From contig JANJXB010000058.1 of the NCBI GenBank assembly GCA_024709245.1, forward strand, positions 1 to 42,738: a stretch of 42,738 nt of DNA, read 5' to 3'. This document shows, piece after piece, positions 19,249 to 42,357 of the stretch. The DNA comes from Acholeplasmataceae bacterium. GTDB taxonomy: Bacteria; Bacillota_I; Bacilli_A; Acholeplasmatales; Acholeplasmataceae. How positions within the stretch are numbered: the first letter of the stretch is position 1; the number at the start of each line of letters is the position of its first letter. Position numbers and translations under genes: made by a program. The notes beneath the pieces were generated by a model. The model searched no databases and was not told the origin of the DNA. It worked only from the letters and a program-made list of their open reading frames with translations.

Positions 19249-20460
19249 ATGAACCGACTCATTGAACGTTTTTTACGCTATGTTAAAGTCGATACCCAAT
19301 CAAATCACGACACGGGTACTCATCCTTCAACAGAAAAACAGAAGAATTTATCTCGCATGCTTGTCTCTGAATTGAAAGACTTAGGACTGCCTGCATTCAT
19401 GGATGACTTTGGCTATGTTTACACAAAAATCGAAAAGAATGTGCAAGGAGCTCCAGCCATTGGATTTGTTGCACATGTGGACACTTCTCCAGATGCTCCA
19501 GGTCTGGATGTTCATCCTAGAATCATCAAGAATTATGATGGATCCATCATTAGACTGAATGATAAGTTAGAAATGGGTCCCGCTTTGTATCCTTCATTGA
19601 AACGTGTGATTGGACAAGATATCATCGTCACCGATGGTAACACCTTACTTGGCGCCGATGACAAATGTGGTGTTGCAGAAATCATGGAACTTGCAGAGTA
19701 CTTTGTTGCCAATCCAAAAGAAAAGCATGGCGATATCTTCATTTGCTTCACACCCGATGAAGAAATTGGTGAAGGTGCTGATCATTTCAATTACGAGTAC
19801 TTTAAGGCTGATTTTGCGTATACAGCCGATGGTTCAGAAGTCGGTGGTATTGAATATGAAAATTTCAATGCCGCTTCTGCTGTTGTTTCTTTTATTGGTA
19901 AATCCATCCATCCAGGTACGGCAAAAAACAAGATGATCAATGCACTTCATCTTGCAATGGAATTTCATCACCTATTACCTGTCTTTAAAAATCCAGCTTA
20001 TACTGAAAAATATGAAGGTTTCAATCATTTGACTGGATTATCTGGTGAAGTGGAGAAGGCAACATCGAAATACATCATCAGAAATCATGACATGGAAAAA
20101 TTCACAACCCAAAAGAAAGAGTTTGAAACCATTCGTGATTATATGAACGCGCGTTACGGGTACGAGGCTGTTGTGTTATCCATGAAAGATACCTACTACA
20201 ACATGTATGAAATCATTAAAAACCATATGCACATCATTGATCTTGCTGAGCAAGCCATCAAGAATGTCGGGGTTACTCCATTCTTTGAAGCCATTCGTGG
20301 CGGTACCGATGGTGCAAGACTAACCTATCAAGGCTTGTTATGTCCTAATTTAGGTACAGGTGGCTATCAATTCCATGGCAGAATGGAATTTGCATCCATC
20401 CAACAGATGGAAAAAGCAGTATCCATCTTCATCGAGATTGTAAAACTGGCTGCTCGATAA
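19249..20460 (+). CDS. pepT: Peptidase T (tripeptidase, M20B)
   Basis: GFVAHVDTSPDAPG, GADDKCGVAEIMELAEY, TPDEEIGEGADHF, IRGGTDGARLTYQGLLCPNLGTGG. Confidence 0.95.
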   Translation: MNRLIERFLRYVKVDTQSNHDTGTHPSTEKQKNLSRMLVSELKDLGLPAFMDDFGYVYTKIEKNVQGAPAIGFVAHVDTSPDAPGLDVHPRIIKNYDGSIIRLNDKLEMGPALYPSLKRVIGQDIIVTDGNTLLGADDKCGVAEIMELAEYFVANPKEKHGDIFICFTPDEEIGEGADHFNYEYFKADFAYTADGSEVGGIEYENFNAASAVVSFIGKSIHPGTAKNKMINALHLAMEFHHLLPVFKNPAYTEKYEGFNHLTGLSGEVEKATSKYIIRNHDMEKFTTQKKEFETIRDYMNARYGYEAVVLSMKDTYYNMYEIIKNHMHIIDLAEQAIKNVGVTPFFEAIRGGTDGARLTYQGLLCPNLGTGGYQFHGRMEFASIQQMEKAVSIFIEIVKLAAR

Positions 20461-34343: not shown

Positions 34344-36968
34344 TTAACGTGGGTTCTTGATGTTTGCGTGTGCAGCAGCAAGTCTAGCAATTGGAACTCT
34401 GAAAGGTGAACAAGAGACATAAGTCAATCCGATTGAATGACAGAATTCAACAGAGAGTGGATCTCCACCATGTTCGCCACAGATACCAAGCTTCAAGTCT
34501 GGTCTGGTTTGCTTACCAAGTTTGCATGCCATATCCATCAATTTACCAACACCTTTAGTGTCGATGTGAGCAAATGGATCGCTTGCGAAAATCTTCTTTT
34601 CATAATAGTCGCCAAGGAACTTGCCAGCATCGTCTCTGGAGAATCCAAAGGTCATCTGAGTCAAGTCATTGGTACCAAAGCTGAAGAATTCTGCTTCTTT
34701 AGCAATGTCATCGGCCATGATGGCAGCTCTTGGAATTTCAATCATCGTACCGACTGAATATTCAAGTTCAACGCCAGCATCCTTGATGATCTTGTTGGCA
34801 GTTTCAACAACGATGTCTTTGACATATTGGAGTTCTTTTAATTCACCCACAAGTGGGATCATAATTTCAGGAACAACCTTCATGCCTTCTTTATTCACCT
34901 GAATGGCTGCTTCAATGACAGCACGTGTCTGCATCACAGCAATTTCAGGATAAGTGACAGATAGACGTACACCACGATGACCTAACATTGGGTTGGTTTC
35001 ATGAAGGTCATTGATGGTCTTGGAAAGTTCTTCATACGATAAATTCATTTCTTTTGCGAGAGCTCTAATATCAGATTCAGCAGTTGGAACGAATTCGTGT
35101 AGCGGTGGATCCAAATAACGGATGGTCACGGCATAACCCTTCATTTCCTTATAGAGTCCGATGAAATCTTCTCTTTGCATTGGAAGAAGTTTAGCCAGTG
35201 CTTTTTCTCTTTCAGCAACATTCTTCGCAACAATCATTTCACGGACTGCTGGAATTCTGTCTGCTTCAAAGAACATATGTTCAGTACGGCAAAGACCAAT
35301 GCCTTGCGCACCATAATTGTATGCAACACGTGCATCTCTTGGATTGTCAGCATTTGCTCTCACTTGGAGTGCTCTGAACTTGTCAGCCCATCCCATGAGA
35401 ATACCGAAATCACCCGAAACAGTTGCATCTTGAGTTTCAACTTTTTGACCATAAACCTTACCTGTTGAACCATCGAGTGAAATCCAGTCGCCTTCTTTGA
35501 AGATTTCGCCGTTAACTTCGAAATACTTCTTCGATTCGTATACATGGACTGAACCAGCGCCTGCAACACAGCATGTACCCATACCACGTGCAACAACCGC
35601 TGCGTGTGAAGTCATACCGCCTCTGGATGTAAGAATACCAGAAGAAACGATCATACCTTCAATATCTTCAGGTGAAGTTTCCTGACGTACTAAGACAACA
35701 GGAAGACCATCTTTTGCTTTTAATTCTTTTGCTCTTTCCGCTGTGAAGCATACACGACCTGTTGCTGCACCTGGAGATGCATTCAAGCCAGTAGCAATCA
35801 CTCTTGCTGCCTTTAAAGCTTTAGGATTGAACTGTGGGTGAAGAAGTGCATCAAGTTGAGAAGGTTCAACTTTGAGAACTGCTTCTTTTTCTGTCAATAC
35901 GCCTTCTTTAACAAGATCGATGGCAATCTTTAATGCAGCTTGTGCAGTTCTCTTACCATTTCTTGTTTGAAGCATGTAGAGTTTACCTCTTTCGATGGTG
36001 AACTCCATATCTTGCATATCACGATAATGCGCTTCAAGTTTCTTCGAAATATTGAAGAATTGTTCGTAAAGCGCTGGATTGTCTTTCTTTAATTCAGCAA
36101 TCGGTTTGGGTGTACGAATACCGGCAACAACATCTTCACCTTGTGCGTTAAAGAGGTATTCACCATAAAGTTCATTGGTTCCATCCGATGGGTTTCTAGA
36201 GAATGCGACACCTGTACCGGAGTCTTCACCCATGTTACCAAACACCATGCCTTGTACGTTGACTGCAGTACCCCATTCATAAGGAATGTGGTTAAGTCTT
36301 CTGTAGGTATTGGCACGTGGATTGTCCCAGGATCTGAAAACTGCTGTGATGGCTTCAATCAGCTGAACTTTTGGATCTTGAGGGAATTCTTCGCCTTTGA
36401 GTTCATGATACTTAACCAAGAACTGTGAAACAAGTTTCTTCAAGTCGTTTGCATCGAGTTCAGTGTCGAGTTCAACATGCTTTTGGTGCTTCATTTCTTC
36501 AAGCAGATGTTCGAAATTGCTCTTGTCAATTTCCATAACAACGTCAGCAAACATTTGAATGAAACGACGATAAGAGTCGTAAGCAAAACGTGGGTTGTTG
36601 GTCAATTGAGCTAGACCTTCAACTGAAACGTTGTTCAAGCCTAAGTTTAAGATGGTATCCATCATACCAGGCATTGAGGCTCTTGCACCGGAACGTACGG
36701 AGACTAAGAATGGATCTTTAGGATCTCCAAACTTCTTGCCTGCTTCTTTTTCTGTCACTTCTAATGCTTGATAAATCTGTTTGATGATTTCGGGAGCGAT
36801 TACTTTCTTTTTAGCATAGTAATCATTGCAGGCTTCCGTCGTCACGGTAAATCCTTGGGGCACGGGCATTCCAAGCGAAGTCATATCCGCCAGGTTCGCA
36901 CCTTTACCACCGAGAAGGTTCTTCATTGAAGCATTACCTTCTTTGAATAAATACACGTATTTAGTCAT
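34344..36968 (-). CDS. ppdK: Pyruvate, phosphate dikinase
   Basis: GGKGANLADM, phospho-His GGMTSHAAVVARGMG, SFGTNDLTQMTFGFSRDD, GICGEHGGDP. Confidence 0.97.
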   Translation of the reverse strand: MTKYVYLFKEGNASMKNLLGGKGANLADMTSLGMPVPQGFTVTTEACNDYYAKKKVIAPEIIKQIYQALEVTEKEAGKKFGDPKDPFLVSVRSGARASMPGMMDTILNLGLNNVSVEGLAQLTNNPRFAYDSYRRFIQMFADVVMEIDKSNFEHLLEEMKHQKHVELDTELDANDLKKLVSQFLVKYHELKGEEFPQDPKVQLIEAITAVFRSWDNPRANTYRRLNHIPYEWGTAVNVQGMVFGNMGEDSGTGVAFSRNPSDGTNELYGEYLFNAQGEDVVAGIRTPKPIAELKKDNPALYEQFFNISKKLEAHYRDMQDMEFTIERGKLYMLQTRNGKRTAQAALKIAIDLVKEGVLTEKEAVLKVEPSQLDALLHPQFNPKALKAARVIATGLNASPGAATGRVCFTAERAKELKAKDGLPVVLVRQETSPEDIEGMIVSSGILTSRGGMTSHAAVVARGMGTCCVAGAGSVHVYESKKYFEVNGEIFKEGDWISLDGSTGKVYGQKVETQDATVSGDFGILMGWADKFRALQVRANADNPRDARVAYNYGAQGIGLCRTEHMFFEADRIPAVREMIVAKNVAEREKALAKLLPMQREDFIGLYKEMKGYAVTIRYLDPPLHEFVPTAESDIRALAKEMNLSYEELSKTINDLHETNPMLGHRGVRLSVTYPEIAVMQTRAVIEAAIQVNKEGMKVVPEIMIPLVGELKELQYVKDIVVETANKIIKDAGVELEYSVGTMIEIPRAAIMADDIAKEAEFFSFGTNDLTQMTFGFSRDDAGKFLGDYYEKKIFASDPFAHIDTKGVGKLMDMACKLGKQTRPDLKLGICGEHGGDPLSVEFCHSIGLTYVSCSPFRVPIARLAAAHANIKNPR

Positions 36969-37021
36969 TGTGATTTCCTTTCTTTTATAGAATCATCTCT
37001 ATTATATATGATTTCGTTTCT

Positions 37022-37972
37022 TTATGAAACTTTTTTAACCAGATTATAAAGCTCATTCTTGGGACGCTTTTGTCCGACTACATTCGAGAATGGTAAATGA
37101 ACCATGCGTGAATCTCGAACTCCAACACAAACACCATAGATGTCATCGTTTAAGAGTTCTACAGCATAGGTTCCCATTCTAGATCCGAGTATACGGTCTT
37201 CTGGACAGGGTGATCCACCTCTTTGAATATAGCCTAATACCGTAGCTCTAGAACTAAACCCTGACTTCTCGGTAATTTCTGATGCGAAATCATGAACATT
37301 CACTTGATTCTCAGTGATGACAATGATGGCATGTCTTCTACCATCAGCCTTATGTTTTTTCAAGCGTTCAATGATTTTCTCTTTATTGATGGGATTTTCA
37401 GGTGTGATGATGAACTCAGCACCTCCACAAATTCCAGCGAAAAGTGCTAAATCTCCACAATGTCTACCCATCACTTCGACAATAGAACATCTTTGATGTG
37501 ATGCTGATGTATCTCTTAATTTATCAATAGCATCAACAATCGTTTCCACTGCAGTTTGAAATCCGATGGTAAAATCGGTTCCTGCGATGTCATTATCAAT
37601 CGTTCCAGGAAGTCCAATGGTTTTTAATCCCATCTTGGCAAGGTCCATTGCTCCACGATACGTACCGTCACCACCGATGACAATCAGTGCTTCAATACCT
37701 CGAGCGAGTAAATTATTGACTGCTTTTTGTCTGACTTCTTCTTTTAAAAAATCTTGAGATCTTGACGTTCCAAGAAACGTGCCACCTTTCGATAGCATGC
37801 CTGATACACTGTCGTGATTTAGAAGAATCAAATCATCGTTGATCATGCCTTGATAACCGTCTTTAATGCCATAAACTTCATGTCCATAGAGAATGCCAGC
37901 ACGAACAACTGCACGAATGGCAGCATTCATTCCTGGTGCATCTCCACCTGATGTCAAAACAGCGATTTTCAT
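37022..37972 (-). CDS. pfkA: ATP-dependent 6-phosphofructokinase
   Basis: TSGGDAPGMNAAIRAVVR, GGDGTYRGA, GLPGTIDND (Gly/Gly residues of ATP-type PFKs). ATG 37972; the ORF-track N-terminus spans the promoter. Confidence 0.95.
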   Translation of the reverse strand: MKIAVLTSGGDAPGMNAAIRAVVRAGILYGHEVYGIKDGYQGMINDDLILLNHDSVSGMLSKGGTFLGTSRSQDFLKEEVRQKAVNNLLARGIEALIVIGGDGTYRGAMDLAKMGLKTIGLPGTIDNDIAGTDFTIGFQTAVETIVDAIDKLRDTSASHQRCSIVEVMGRHCGDLALFAGICGGAEFIITPENPINKEKIIERLKKHKADGRRHAIIVITENQVNVHDFASEITEKSGFSSRATVLGYIQRGGSPCPEDRILGSRMGTYAVELLNDDIYGVCVGVRDSRMVHLPFSNVVGQKRPKNELYNLVKKVS

Positions 37973-38015
37973 CTTTTTATAACCGTCCTTGCTTCGTATG
38001 ACATATTCCTTTCTA

Positions 38016-38024
38016 ATTATAACA
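38016..38024 (-). promoter_or_regulatory. Extended -10 promoter of pfkA
   Basis: TGTTATAAT on the minus strand. Confidence 0.6.
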
Positions 38025-38070
38025 CAACCCACTTTCAATTTCATTGAGGAACTGCGAAAATGTTGATCAG

Positions 38071-38085
38071 TGAAAACGATTTTAT
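38071..38085. promoter_or_regulatory. cre-like element between the two PFK genes
   Basis: AGTGAAAACGATTTTAT, nearly identical to AGTGAAAACGTTTTAT upstream of pyk. Confidence 0.45.
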
Positions 38086-38096
38086 AACTGATTTCA

Positions 38097-38124
38097 TTGG
38101 TAAGAACTGAAATTATGGTAAAAT
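38097..38124 (+). promoter_or_regulatory. Promoter of the PPi-PFK gene
   Basis: TTGGTA - 16 nt - TAAAAT, with TGG before the -10. Confidence 0.55.
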
Positions 38125-38166
38125 GGTTTTTGGAAAATAAAAAAATAAAAACGGAATGGTGAATCT

Positions 38167-39411
38167 ATGAAAAACTTAGTCGGTGCGGCTCTCCTTGGAC
38201 AATCCGGAGGACCAACCAGTGTCATCAATGCCAGTGCGGCTGGTGTCTTCATCGAAGCTTTGAAACAGGAAAACATTACTGAAGTCTATGGTGCTATCCA
38301 TGGTGTCAAAGGGATATTGAATGAAGATTTTTATGATATTGCAAAGGAAGATTTAGAAGAATTGTATTTGCTTAAGAATACACCTTCTTCATCGATTGGT
38401 AGTGTACGTTACAAATTAAAGGATCCTAAAAAAGATTCAAGTGAGTATCAACGCTTACTAGATGTTTTTAAGAAATATAACATCCGTTATTTCTTCTATA
38501 ACGGAGGTAATGACTCTATGGATACTTGCAATAAGATTTCTAAGTTTTTCAAGAAGTCTGGATATGATTGCAATGTCATGGGTGTTCCAAAGACAATTGA
38601 TAACGATTTGAATGCAACTGACCATTCTCCAGGATATGCAAGTGCTGCAAAATATGTCGCAACGACAATGATGGAACTTTATCATGACGCAACCGTCTAT
38701 GATACCAAGCAAGTCACGATTGTTGAAGTGATGGGGAGAAATGCAGGTTGGTTAACAGCTGCTGCTGCACTCGCACAATATAAGGGTCAAGGTCCAGATT
38801 TGATATATCTTCCTGAAGTTCCATTTGATATCGAACAATTCTTCTCTGCTGTTGAACGTTTGATTAAAGAAAAAGGAAAAGTCATTGTTGCTGTTTCTGA
38901 AGGCATTAAAACCAAAGAAGGCAAATACATTCCAGAAATGTATCAAGAATTGAAACGTGATGCATTCGGTCATGCTCAACTCGGGGGTACTGCTCAAGTT
39001 CTAGCTGAGCAGGTTGCAAATCGTATTGATGTCAAAGTCAGAGCCATTGAATTCTCACTCATCCAAAGATCTGCAGCTCATCTTGCATCCAAAGTGGATG
39101 TTGAAGAAGCATTCAACGCTGGTAAAAAGGCTGTTCAAGCAGCGGTTCGTGGAACAACGGATAAGATGGTCGGGTTTAAGCGCATCAGTTCAAATCCTTA
39201 TAAGATTAAATACGTGCTTCTTCCACTGAAACTCGCAGCAAATACCGAACAAAAAGTTCCCCTAGAATGGATTCTTCCTGAAGGTAAGGGATTGACACAA
39301 GCATTTATTGATTATGCTCTACCTCTCATTCAAGGTGATTCGAAGGCTAAGCTTGAAGATGGTCTACCCAGATTCGCGAAATTAAAGAAGATTAGAGTAC
39401 CTAAGAAATAG
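38167..39411 (+). CDS. Pyrophosphate-dependent phosphofructokinase
   Basis: GGNDSMD and GVPKTIDND carry the Asp/Lys pair diagnostic of PPi-PFKs; VEVMGRNAGWLTAAAALA. Confidence 0.93.
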   Translation: MKNLVGAALLGQSGGPTSVINASAAGVFIEALKQENITEVYGAIHGVKGILNEDFYDIAKEDLEELYLLKNTPSSSIGSVRYKLKDPKKDSSEYQRLLDVFKKYNIRYFFYNGGNDSMDTCNKISKFFKKSGYDCNVMGVPKTIDNDLNATDHSPGYASAAKYVATTMMELYHDATVYDTKQVTIVEVMGRNAGWLTAAAALAQYKGQGPDLIYLPEVPFDIEQFFSAVERLIKEKGKVIVAVSEGIKTKEGKYIPEMYQELKRDAFGHAQLGGTAQVLAEQVANRIDVKVRAIEFSLIQRSAAHLASKVDVEEAFNAGKKAVQAAVRGTTDKMVGFKRISSNPYKIKYVLLPLKLAANTEQKVPLEWILPEGKGLTQAFIDYALPLIQGDSKAKLEDGLPRFAKLKKIRVPKK

Positions 39412-39419
39412 TCATTTCA

Positions 39420-39449
39420 AGAGACGCAAAACGATGCGTCTCTTTTTTT
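39420..39449 (+). terminator. Intrinsic terminator of the PPi-PFK gene
   Basis: AGAGACGC-N8-GCGTCTCTTTTTTT. Confidence 0.87.
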
Positions 39450-39510
39450 CATCCAACCTTTTGAATTATCAAGTATAATGAAAGAAAACATCACAAGTGA
39501 GGTGCTTTAC

Positions 39511-40239
39511 ATGGCGTTTTTGAATGCATGGTGGCTTTATGCAGTCGTTGGCATCATTTTTGTCTATATTTTATTACAGTCATCGATTTTTTTGATGAAA
39601 GCAATCCAAAGAGCGAGAGAACTCAAATTTACCAATGAACAGATTCGAAAGACCATCACATCGTCGATGGTATTTTCGATTGCTCCTTCAGCAGCCATAT
39701 TAATTGGCCTAGTAACATTGAGTAAAATCATCGGACCAGCACTTGCTGCTATGAGACTTGGCACTTTAGGTGCTGTAACTTATGAATTGCCAACCTCATT
39801 ATTGGTACTTGAAAGTTTTGGTTTAAATTCAGGTGATCTATTGAATACAAATGTTGTTGTCACCATCATTTGGGTGCTCACATTTGGTTGTATTCCTCCA
39901 CTGCTCATCATTCCTTTTTTCTATAAAAAAATGAGTGGAAAAATGAAGGCTGTCAAGGAAAAGGATAGTCGTTGGAATTCTATTTTAATGGATGCACTAT
40001 TCATTGGTATGATTTCAGCATTTGTGGGATTTGTGCTTGCTCCAAGAACAGTTTCTGGAGAAACCTATATTTCGTTACTTGCCATTTTAGTGTTACTTTC
40101 ATCCATGGCACTGATTGTGATTTTTGGACTACTTCTTAAAAAATTCAAATGGGAATGGTTAAGAAATTATGCACTCCCTTTATCGATGGTCATTGCAATG
40201 GCACTCGCCATTGTTTATGCTGGATTGGGGGTTAGATAA
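39511..40239 (+). CDS. DUF5058-family multi-TM membrane protein
   Basis: MAFLNAWWLYAVVGIIFVYILLQSSIFLMKAIQRAREL; multi-TM. ATG 39511 preceded by GTGAGGTG. Confidence 0.75.
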   Translation: MAFLNAWWLYAVVGIIFVYILLQSSIFLMKAIQRARELKFTNEQIRKTITSSMVFSIAPSAAILIGLVTLSKIIGPALAAMRLGTLGAVTYELPTSLLVLESFGLNSGDLLNTNVVVTIIWVLTFGCIPPLLIIPFFYKKMSGKMKAVKEKDSRWNSILMDALFIGMISAFVGFVLAPRTVSGETYISLLAILVLLSSMALIVIFGLLLKKFKWEWLRNYALPLSMVIAMALAIVYAGLGVR

Positions 40240-40240
40240 C

Positions 40241-40897
40241 ATGAGAACCTATCAAGATCAGATTCATTTTGAAGGAAGATACTGGATGCTCGGTGCACTT
40301 GCACTCTTCATCTCAGTTCCATTCATTTTAAGTTTAGTCACTGGTGTATGGCCAACATTCCAAGAGTTCTTACCCGGATTTATAGCAACCATCACAGTCT
40401 TCTGGCCTGTCACAACCATTGAAGTCTTCACATTCACTCCAATGCTTGGTGTGGGATCAAGTTATATGGCTTTTGTCACAGGTAATCTCACTTCTTTGAA
40501 AGTACCTGCAGCTTTGAATGCTCAAGATGCACTCGGTGTTGAAAAAGGGTCGGAAGAAGGCGATGTGATTTCGACAATCGCTGTGGCATCTTCAAACATC
40601 ATCACAACCCTCATCATTCTCACCGGTGCTCTATTGATCATACCACTCACACCCATTTTGGAATTAGAAGCTGTGAAACCTGCATTTGACAATGTGATTC
40701 CTGCACTCTTCGGAGCACTTGGATTTGTCTATATCAGTAAGCGTTGGAAAATAGCGCTTGTTCCACTCATTTTCATGGCGCTCTTCTTCTTATTTGTTCC
40801 AGGCAGTTCAGGTCTGGTAGGCATCATGGTTCCTGTAGGTGTTGTGATTTCGTTGACTATTGCAAGAATACTTTATAAGAAGGAGATGATTCGATGA
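40241..40897 (+). CDS. Multi-TM membrane protein, putative partner of the DUF5058 protein
   Basis: ATG one base after the DUF5058 stop (TAACATG); several hydrophobic segments. Confidence 0.8.
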   Translation: MRTYQDQIHFEGRYWMLGALALFISVPFILSLVTGVWPTFQEFLPGFIATITVFWPVTTIEVFTFTPMLGVGSSYMAFVTGNLTSLKVPAALNAQDALGVEKGSEEGDVISTIAVASSNIITTLIILTGALLIIPLTPILELEAVKPAFDNVIPALFGALGFVYISKRWKIALVPLIFMALFFLFVPGSSGLVGIMVPVGVVISLTIARILYKKEMIR

Positions 40898-42324
40898 ATC
40901 CCTGGCTCCATCTCTTATGGATCCCATTGTTCATTCTCATCGTTATCATTTATAAAACCATACGATTTCAACCTATCAACCATCCCACGATGAGAAAAAA
41001 ACATGAAATTGATGAGAAACATGCCATCCTTTCATTGTCTGAAATGATTCAACTGAAAACTGTATCCAGTGACAATCCGGACTTGATAGATCCTGTTGAA
41101 TTTAGAAAATTTAAAGACTATTTGGTCAGTCGTTTTCCACAGGTGTCCAAACACTCATCAGTTCAAGAAATCAGCACGGGAATCCTCTTTAAAATCACTG
41201 GGAAAAGTGATTTAGAACCTACAGTATTCATGGCACATTTTGATGTCGTTCCAGCATCTGGAACATGGAATGAAGATCCATTTTCAGGGCGTATCTCCAC
41301 AACAACGGTATATGGTAGAGGAGCACTCGATACCAAGAGCAGTTTGAATGCCATCATGGAAGCAATTGAACATGCATTACACCATGGAAAAGTATTCAAG
41401 AATGACCTTTATTTGGCTTTCTCAGGCGATGAAGAGACTTTAGGACATGGTGCACCTGCCATCATGAATGAATTGAGAAAAATGGGTGTTAAGCCTGCTC
41501 TTGTTTTAGATGAAGGTGGCGCAATTGTCTCAAAAATGTTTCCCGGTGTTCAATCAAAGGCAGCAGTTGTTGGCATTGCAGAAAAAGGATTTTTAAACAT
41601 ACGATTAATCGCTAAATCCAGTGGTGGTCATGCATCAACACCACCGAAAGATACTCCAGTAACCTTGTTATCTAAAGCCGTTGTCAAACTCAATCAAAGC
41701 AAGATTTTTAAACTCAAAATGACAACCCCAGTCCGTGAACTTTTTAAAGCACTTGCACCTCATTCCACATCACTTCCAATCAAAGTTTTATTTGCAAATT
41801 TATGGCTGTTCTTACCTGTTGTGAAGTTGATTGCAAAACTTTCGGGTGGTGAATTCTTATCGATGTTTAAAACCACTCAAGCGTTCACACTTGCCAGTGG
41901 ATCAGAAGCCATCAATGTCTTACCTGCAGTAGCAACGATTGGGATTAATTACCGTCTTAGACCTGATGAGACATCAGATCAAGTCATCAAGAATATTCGA
42001 AAAGTAATTAATAATGATTTGATTGAAATTGAAGTATTGAGTAAATCTGAAGCAACCAAATCTTCTTTGATTGATGAATCATTTGATTTGATCGAAAAGG
42101 CAATTCATCAGACATGGCCTGATGTACTTGTAGCACCCTATCTGATGGTAGCAACCACTGATTCAAGACATTATCATGAAATAAGCGATCATGTGTATAA
42201 GTTTTCACCGATGGATGTATCCAAACTCGACTTGAAGAAAATTCATGGTGTTGATGAAGATATCAGTATTGAGAATATTGTCAATGGTGTGAATTTCTAC
42301 CTGAATCTAATCGAATATTTATAG
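40894..42324 (+). CDS. Membrane-anchored M20-family metallopeptidase (CPS/PM20D1-like)
   Basis: Start overlaps the upstream stop (ATGA). N-terminal TM helix; MAHFDVVPA, GRGALDTKSSLNAIMEA, SGDEETLGHGAP. Confidence 0.9.
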   Translation: MNPWLHLLWIPLFILIVIIYKTIRFQPINHPTMRKKHEIDEKHAILSLSEMIQLKTVSSDNPDLIDPVEFRKFKDYLVSRFPQVSKHSSVQEISTGILFKITGKSDLEPTVFMAHFDVVPASGTWNEDPFSGRISTTTVYGRGALDTKSSLNAIMEAIEHALHHGKVFKNDLYLAFSGDEETLGHGAPAIMNELRKMGVKPALVLDEGGAIVSKMFPGVQSKAAVVGIAEKGFLNIRLIAKSSGGHASTPPKDTPVTLLSKAVVKLNQSKIFKLKMTTPVRELFKALAPHSTSLPIKVLFANLWLFLPVVKLIAKLSGGEFLSMFKTTQAFTLASGSEAINVLPAVATIGINYRLRPDETSDQVIKNIRKVINNDLIEIEVLSKSEATKSSLIDESFDLIEKAIHQTWPDVLVAPYLMVATTDSRHYHEISDHVYKFSPMDVSKLDLKKIHGVDEDISIENIVNGVNFYLNLIEYL

Positions 42325-42332
42325 TCATTAAG

Positions 42333-42357
42333 TCCTTGGGAAACCAAGGATTTTTTT
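42333..42357 (+). terminator. Intrinsic terminator of the DUF5058-M20 operon
   Basis: TCCTTGG-GAAA-CCAAGGATTTTTTT. Confidence 0.87.

Follow-up and report, generated by a model that had tools for sequence, protein, structure and literature searches.

DUF5058 and its membrane partner: a candidate two-subunit carrier accompanied by exchangeable amide hydrolases

DUF5058 has an obligate partner, judging by gene neighbourhoods in several bacterial phyla and in haloarchaea. The partner is a second membrane protein without a name (MP2 hereafter), and the two are confidently predicted by structure modelling to form a heterodimer. By gene context, the membrane pair is the constant part of these loci and amide-bond hydrolysis is the recurring chemistry of the third gene. 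A functional link between the pair and an amide hydrolase is well supported by computation. We consider it probable that the pair is a two-subunit antiparallel carrier, which imports N-acyl amino acids or small peptides for a cytoplasmic amide hydrolase; carrier function, import direction and substrate class are the parts of this reading that we infer. With slightly more doubt than belief, we further propose a new family of carriers encoded by two genes: antiparallel heterodimers, of a fold absent from the PDB, that are spread over bacterial phyla and haloarchaea, are dedicated to scavenging N-acyl amino acids or peptides, and work with interchangeable amide hydrolases of the cytoplasm. If true, a DUF of several phyla would acquire a function and a partner, obligate and as yet unnamed, and there would be a new family of transporters whose confident predicted structure has no solved counterpart. 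It could explain amino acid supply from conjugates in wall-less Acholeplasmataceae and gut Clostridia. Because the genes are small and the hydrolases are of known chemistry, substrate discovery is directly testable in E. coli.

The window (the whole stretch of 42,738 nucleotides that was analysed) comes from a draft genome of 1.54 Mb, which has a single DUF5058 gene and five M20-domain genes and whose close relatives are Acholeplasmataceae. The features of the trio are listed in Table 1. DUF5058 and MP2 are joined as TAA-C-ATG (40237-40243), and MP2 and M20 overlap as ATGA (40894-40897). This spacing suggests that the trio is translationally coupled. An alternative start of DUF5058 is possible at 39478, but the ATG at 39511 has GAGGTG on its 5' side. 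None of the shuffled sequences gave a hairpin as good as that at the operon end. The tight packing and single strong terminator described in the first-pass annotation are thus borne out by the coordinates and by the hairpin z of -3.9. Another M20-domain gene of the window (19249-20460) lies apart from the trio.

Table 1. Positions in the window of the trio genes, their conserved segments and the terminators at both edges
Feature	Position	Strand	Basis
Terminator of preceding phosphofructokinase-type gene (upstream edge of operon)	39419..39444	+	
DUF5058 membrane subunit, 242 aa	39511..40239	+	PF16481, E 6e-54
DUF5058 conserved core G75-E92, invariant R82 and E92	39733..39786	+	alignments; R in 86/86 rows, E in 85/85 rows
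MP2, second membrane protein, 218 aa	40241..40897	+	without Pfam or NCBIfam family
MP2 conserved core E61-P89 (E..P..G....Y....TGN....K/R.P)	40421..40507	+	alignments
M20 metallohydrolase, PRK08262/PM20D1-like, 476 aa	40894..42324	+	Pfam, NCBIfam
M20 predicted N-terminal membrane anchor, residues 3-20	40900..40953	+	K/R only C-terminal of anchor
Intrinsic terminator (operon end)	42330..42353	+	hairpin -15.1 kcal/mol, z -3.9

DUF5058 and MP2 are uncharacterised membrane proteins. DUF5058 passes the gathering cut-off of Pfam PF16481 (183 bits against 28.2), and no mention of DUF5058 or PF16481 was found in the PMC literature searched. MP2 has no match in Pfam or NCBIfam profile scans. Neither protein matches any known transporter model in Pfam, NCBIfam or profile searches, in agreement with the earlier remark that they lack a transporter signature. 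The M20 protein is over the Pfam cut-offs for the catalytic domain (84.8 bits, E 1e-23) and the M20_dimer domain (40.6 bits). Its nearest NCBIfam model is PRK08262, at 298.7 bits against an equivalog cut-off of 825 that is not reached, and it is also under the cut-offs of the sister models. By these scores PRK08262 is its nearest relative only, not an equivalog.

Three other candidate relationships were rejected. The antiporter subunit MnhG matches DUF5058 weakly in NCBIfam (E 4e-4; 20 bits, where the cut-off is 158). In three loci (L013, L014, and L016), frames that resemble UppP (BacA) and are about 280 aa long score below cut-off and are unlinked genes; their matches involve the C-terminal half of DUF5058 and probably stem from common membrane-helix composition. 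A PDB sequence search with the pair profile gave MerF matches only, which are spurious.

In searches of sampled genomes with the DUF5058 profile, 11 of 295, 27 of 349, and 12 of 149 genomes were over the cut-off. Among 62 loci fetched by the PF16481 profile alone, 59 have MP2 directly 3' of DUF5058, mostly with a gap of -4 to 30 bases; the 62 loci represent 56 distinct pairs, our less biased set, of which 44 have an M20 gene alongside (all raw counts, kinship ignored). Conservation of the three-gene neighbourhood, the check proposed at first pass, is found, and separate occurrence of the genes is not the rule. The adjacency spans Mycoplasmatota, Bacillota, Spirochaetota, Actinomycetota, Pseudomonadota, and haloarchaea. 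Further cases, in haloarchaea, Paracoccus, Arthrobacter-type actinomycetes, and one Vibrio, come from plasmid records. Pairing fails in three loci: L153 is a solo copy, L167 is degraded, and L015 is a false match below the cut-off.

The solo DUF5058 (L153:1501-2350, without MP2) is in a spirochaete genome (G811) that also holds a complete trio (L192). It adjoins overlapping matches to the TD-1 and TD-2 RNA families and a gyrB-like gene. A decaying copy is found on a Vibrio diabolicus plasmid (L113:5466-6654), where the DUF5058 frame is broken into two fragments (about 80 and 151 aa), MP2 looks intact, and transposase genes lie on the flanks.

The M20 gene adjoins 114 of 133 distinct pairs, mostly downstream and upstream in seven (raw counts, kinship ignored). 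MP2 and a close M20 occur in the identical 22 of 61 Acholeplasmataceae genomes (again raw counts, kinship ignored). In genus g124 (G298, G304, and G311), the M20 gene is retained although it and the pair are on separate contigs, implying that co-retention does not require linkage. A tree of the joined pair, which is a quick tree with several long branches, has two main clades; on it the third-gene state changes at least nine times and the upstream or downstream order of M20 at least four times. The first clade has anchored PRK08262-type M20s (the window, Clostridia, and some spirochaetes). The second has mainly soluble TIGR01891-type amidohydrolases (haloarchaea, other Clostridia, spirochaetes, and Paracoccus). 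Loci that lack the M20 often have another amide-bond hydrolase instead. In single members this is an M42 aminopeptidase (in L189), an Amidohydro_3 enzyme similar to D-aminoacylase (in L184), or a Xaa-Pro-dipeptidase-like amidohydrolase (in L187). PGA_cap-domain proteins replace or precede M20 after MP2 in two loci (L182:8148-9524 and L185:2840-4180), and one of them weakly matches the lasso-peptide epimerase MslH. A few pairs (L203, L190, L194, and L200) lack an adjacent amide hydrolase, which speaks against the reading that we favour. Beyond the trio, no neighbour is generally conserved across the loci surveyed.

On family average, K/R-rich loops of DUF5058 are found at residues 30-50, 135-158, and 208-220, with acidic residues between them. 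By this charge pattern DUF5058 would have about six transmembrane crossings with both termini outside, and one broken segment that is probably re-entrant. In MP2, again on family average, K/R residues are concentrated at both termini and near 161-170. The pattern predicts about six crossings with both termini inside. As the two charge patterns are opposite, DUF5058 and MP2 appear to be oppositely oriented. In both subunits the most conserved stretch sits between the second and third crossings; the most conserved MP2 residues are E61, Y75, G81, N82, K/R87, and P89.

In some orthologous pairs the two genes share a frame, divided by one stop, and can be read as one chain. The pair was modelled in this way with AlphaFold2, with L109 as the modelled chain. 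The first model (40 paired rows) reached pLDDT 80.9 and pTM 0.73. A better model (120 rows, 40 paired and 80 single, from a deeper alignment that excludes plasmid-collection records) reached pLDDT 88.6 and pTM 0.85, and only its linker (244-258) is disordered. The pTM is beyond the expectation for two unconnected halves, so that a defined heterodimer is predicted; for a pair read as one chain, this value speaks for the interface indirectly. At two thresholds, covariation between DUF5058 and MP2 is higher than in every one of 20 clade-restricted pairing shuffles, though the margin is small and at the stricter threshold narrow. The first-pass annotation had proposed a hetero-oligomeric carrier. 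The hetero-oligomer is supported by the single-chain AlphaFold2 model, and the carrier function stays at the level of suggestion.

Several pairs of small antiparallel membrane proteins are known, namely YdgE/YdgF, DUF606, Fluc, and UPF0016 (PMC3962082, PMC4067407, PMC3755343). Like DUF5058 and MP2, they have adjacent genes and opposite charge bias. Their subunits, however, are smaller and detectably homologous to each other, whereas by the tests run homology of DUF5058 with MP2 is unproven. An hhalign comparison (DUF5058 67-144, MP2 62-143) brings their most conserved stretches into register and is collinear with P 0.014, but 9 of 120 block shuffles score equally high.

In the mechanism that we favour, DUF5058 and MP2 would be obligate subunits of one secondary transporter, an antiparallel heterodimer in which they take opposite orientations. 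Each subunit would contribute a conserved broken segment, and R82 and E92 of DUF5058 together with E61 and K/R87 of MP2 would likely line the substrate site. The carrier would bring in small amide-linked amino acid derivatives, either N-acyl amino acids or short peptides, and glycine conjugates may be a cargo in some lineages. The common denominator of the substrates would be an amino acid in amide linkage. The M20 enzyme, anchored at the cytoplasmic face in the lineage of the window and soluble elsewhere, would cleave the cargo to a free amino acid and an acid or another amino acid.

The M20 residues H115, D117, D146, E180, E181, D206, and E207 are found in all 76 trio-linked orthologues, and H451 in 74 of 76. 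We take their metal and catalytic roles from what is generally known of M20 enzymes. The membrane anchoring noted at first pass is confirmed as an N-terminal anchor of residues 3-20, and the orientation, left open then, is cytoplasmic by charge. Anchored M20 orthologues have on average 0.14 K/R residues before the anchor and 3.36 after it, a pattern present in 86 of 86, which predicts a cytoplasmic catalytic domain and, in the window, an N-out anchor. A cytoplasmic domain fits import followed by hydrolysis. It is also compatible with the opposite direction, in which M20 cleaves cytoplasmic amide conjugates and the pair expels the product (an amino acid or acid), and gene order is uninformative here. 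We regard such an exporter as unlikely, though it is the strongest of the alternatives, since the haloarchaeal copies are located among glycine-consuming genes and PucR-type regulator genes are near several clostridial copies, both of which suit uptake for use. PucR-type regulators usually govern catabolism.

The haloarchaeal context also hints at a substrate. Four haloarchaeal loci adjoin glycine-cleavage, lipoyl, dihydrolipoyl dehydrogenase, or serine hydroxymethyltransferase genes. Three have a neighbour gene annotated TRIC, which is Gly_transporter by Pfam in the one tested, and two are also near fatty-acid genes or a thioesterase. A possible reading is that these are pathways for N-acylglycine or glycyl-peptides. 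Glycine conjugates are thus a haloarchaeal lead from six plasmids only and not a general claim. On haloarchaeal megaplasmids (L112, L116, L117, and L170), glycine-use islands with various combinations of gcv genes, lpdA, lipA, and SHMT, sometimes with TRIC/Gly_transporter, adjoin DUF5058-MP2-M20. Rfam scans of about 70 loci gave no riboswitch tied to the operon.

A known system offers a parallel to the proposed import and hydrolysis. In E. coli, AbgA and AbgB are the M20-family hydrolases for p-aminobenzoyl-glutamate cleavage. Their transporter AbgT carries PABA-glutamate, an N-acyl amino acid (PMC6002978). It is likewise a dedicated carrier working with M20-family hydrolases, and AbgA/B resemble the TIGR01891-type amidohydrolases of the second clade. 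AbgT, however, is a single protein of about 500 aa with its own Pfam family, while here there are two short, unrelated-looking subunits, and the AbgT family is absent from the profile matches of both. In the best explanation, DUF5058-MP2-M20 would work like AbgT with AbgA/B but outside that family.

The pair may instead form a membrane complex without transport, which presents or flips a lipid-like substrate (e.g., an N-acyl amino lipid) to the anchored M20. PM20D1 handles N-acyl amino acids and is extracellular (PMC7145423). The M20 of the window is membrane-anchored and PRK08262-like, resembles PM20D1, has the full M20 metal and catalytic motifs, and has PM20D1/PRK08262 as its nearest NCBIfam models; it differs in that it is predicted to be cytoplasmic and anchored. 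In the other clade, however, the partners are soluble M20s (22 of 23 without an anchor), M42 enzymes, or amidohydrolases, which makes a complex of this kind improbable, more so than an exporter.

Equally improbable is a distant kinship with the 7-TM inverted-repeat superfamily (UraA/SLC23, SLC26), of which the pair would be a split member with one repeat per gene. The inverted architecture predicted for the pair is also that of UraA, SLC23, SLC26, and BicA, which give the best partial likeness. The best Foldseek matches in the PDB are repeatedly SLC26, SLC23, UraA, and AZG1, with probability up to 0.99 but E of 0.007 or more, and no PDB match of the pair models has E < 1e-3. These matches reach TM-scores of at most 0.35 with the first model and at most 0.32 with the better one, and their rmsd is 17-21 A. 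The pair consists of two chains, and its charge pattern gives six full crossings per subunit, not seven. A search of a viral structure library gave no meaningful match for the pair model.

That the genes are chance or lineage-local neighbours with no functional link is refuted by the survey: sugar-kinase genes upstream are syntenic too in Acholeplasmataceae, but the adjacency extends over several bacterial phyla and the haloarchaea, where genes are reordered and hydrolases exchanged. Upstream of the trio in the window, a PPDK-like gene and two phosphofructokinase-type genes adjoin each other at 34344-39411, and the synteny of this block is kept in many Acholeplasmataceae.
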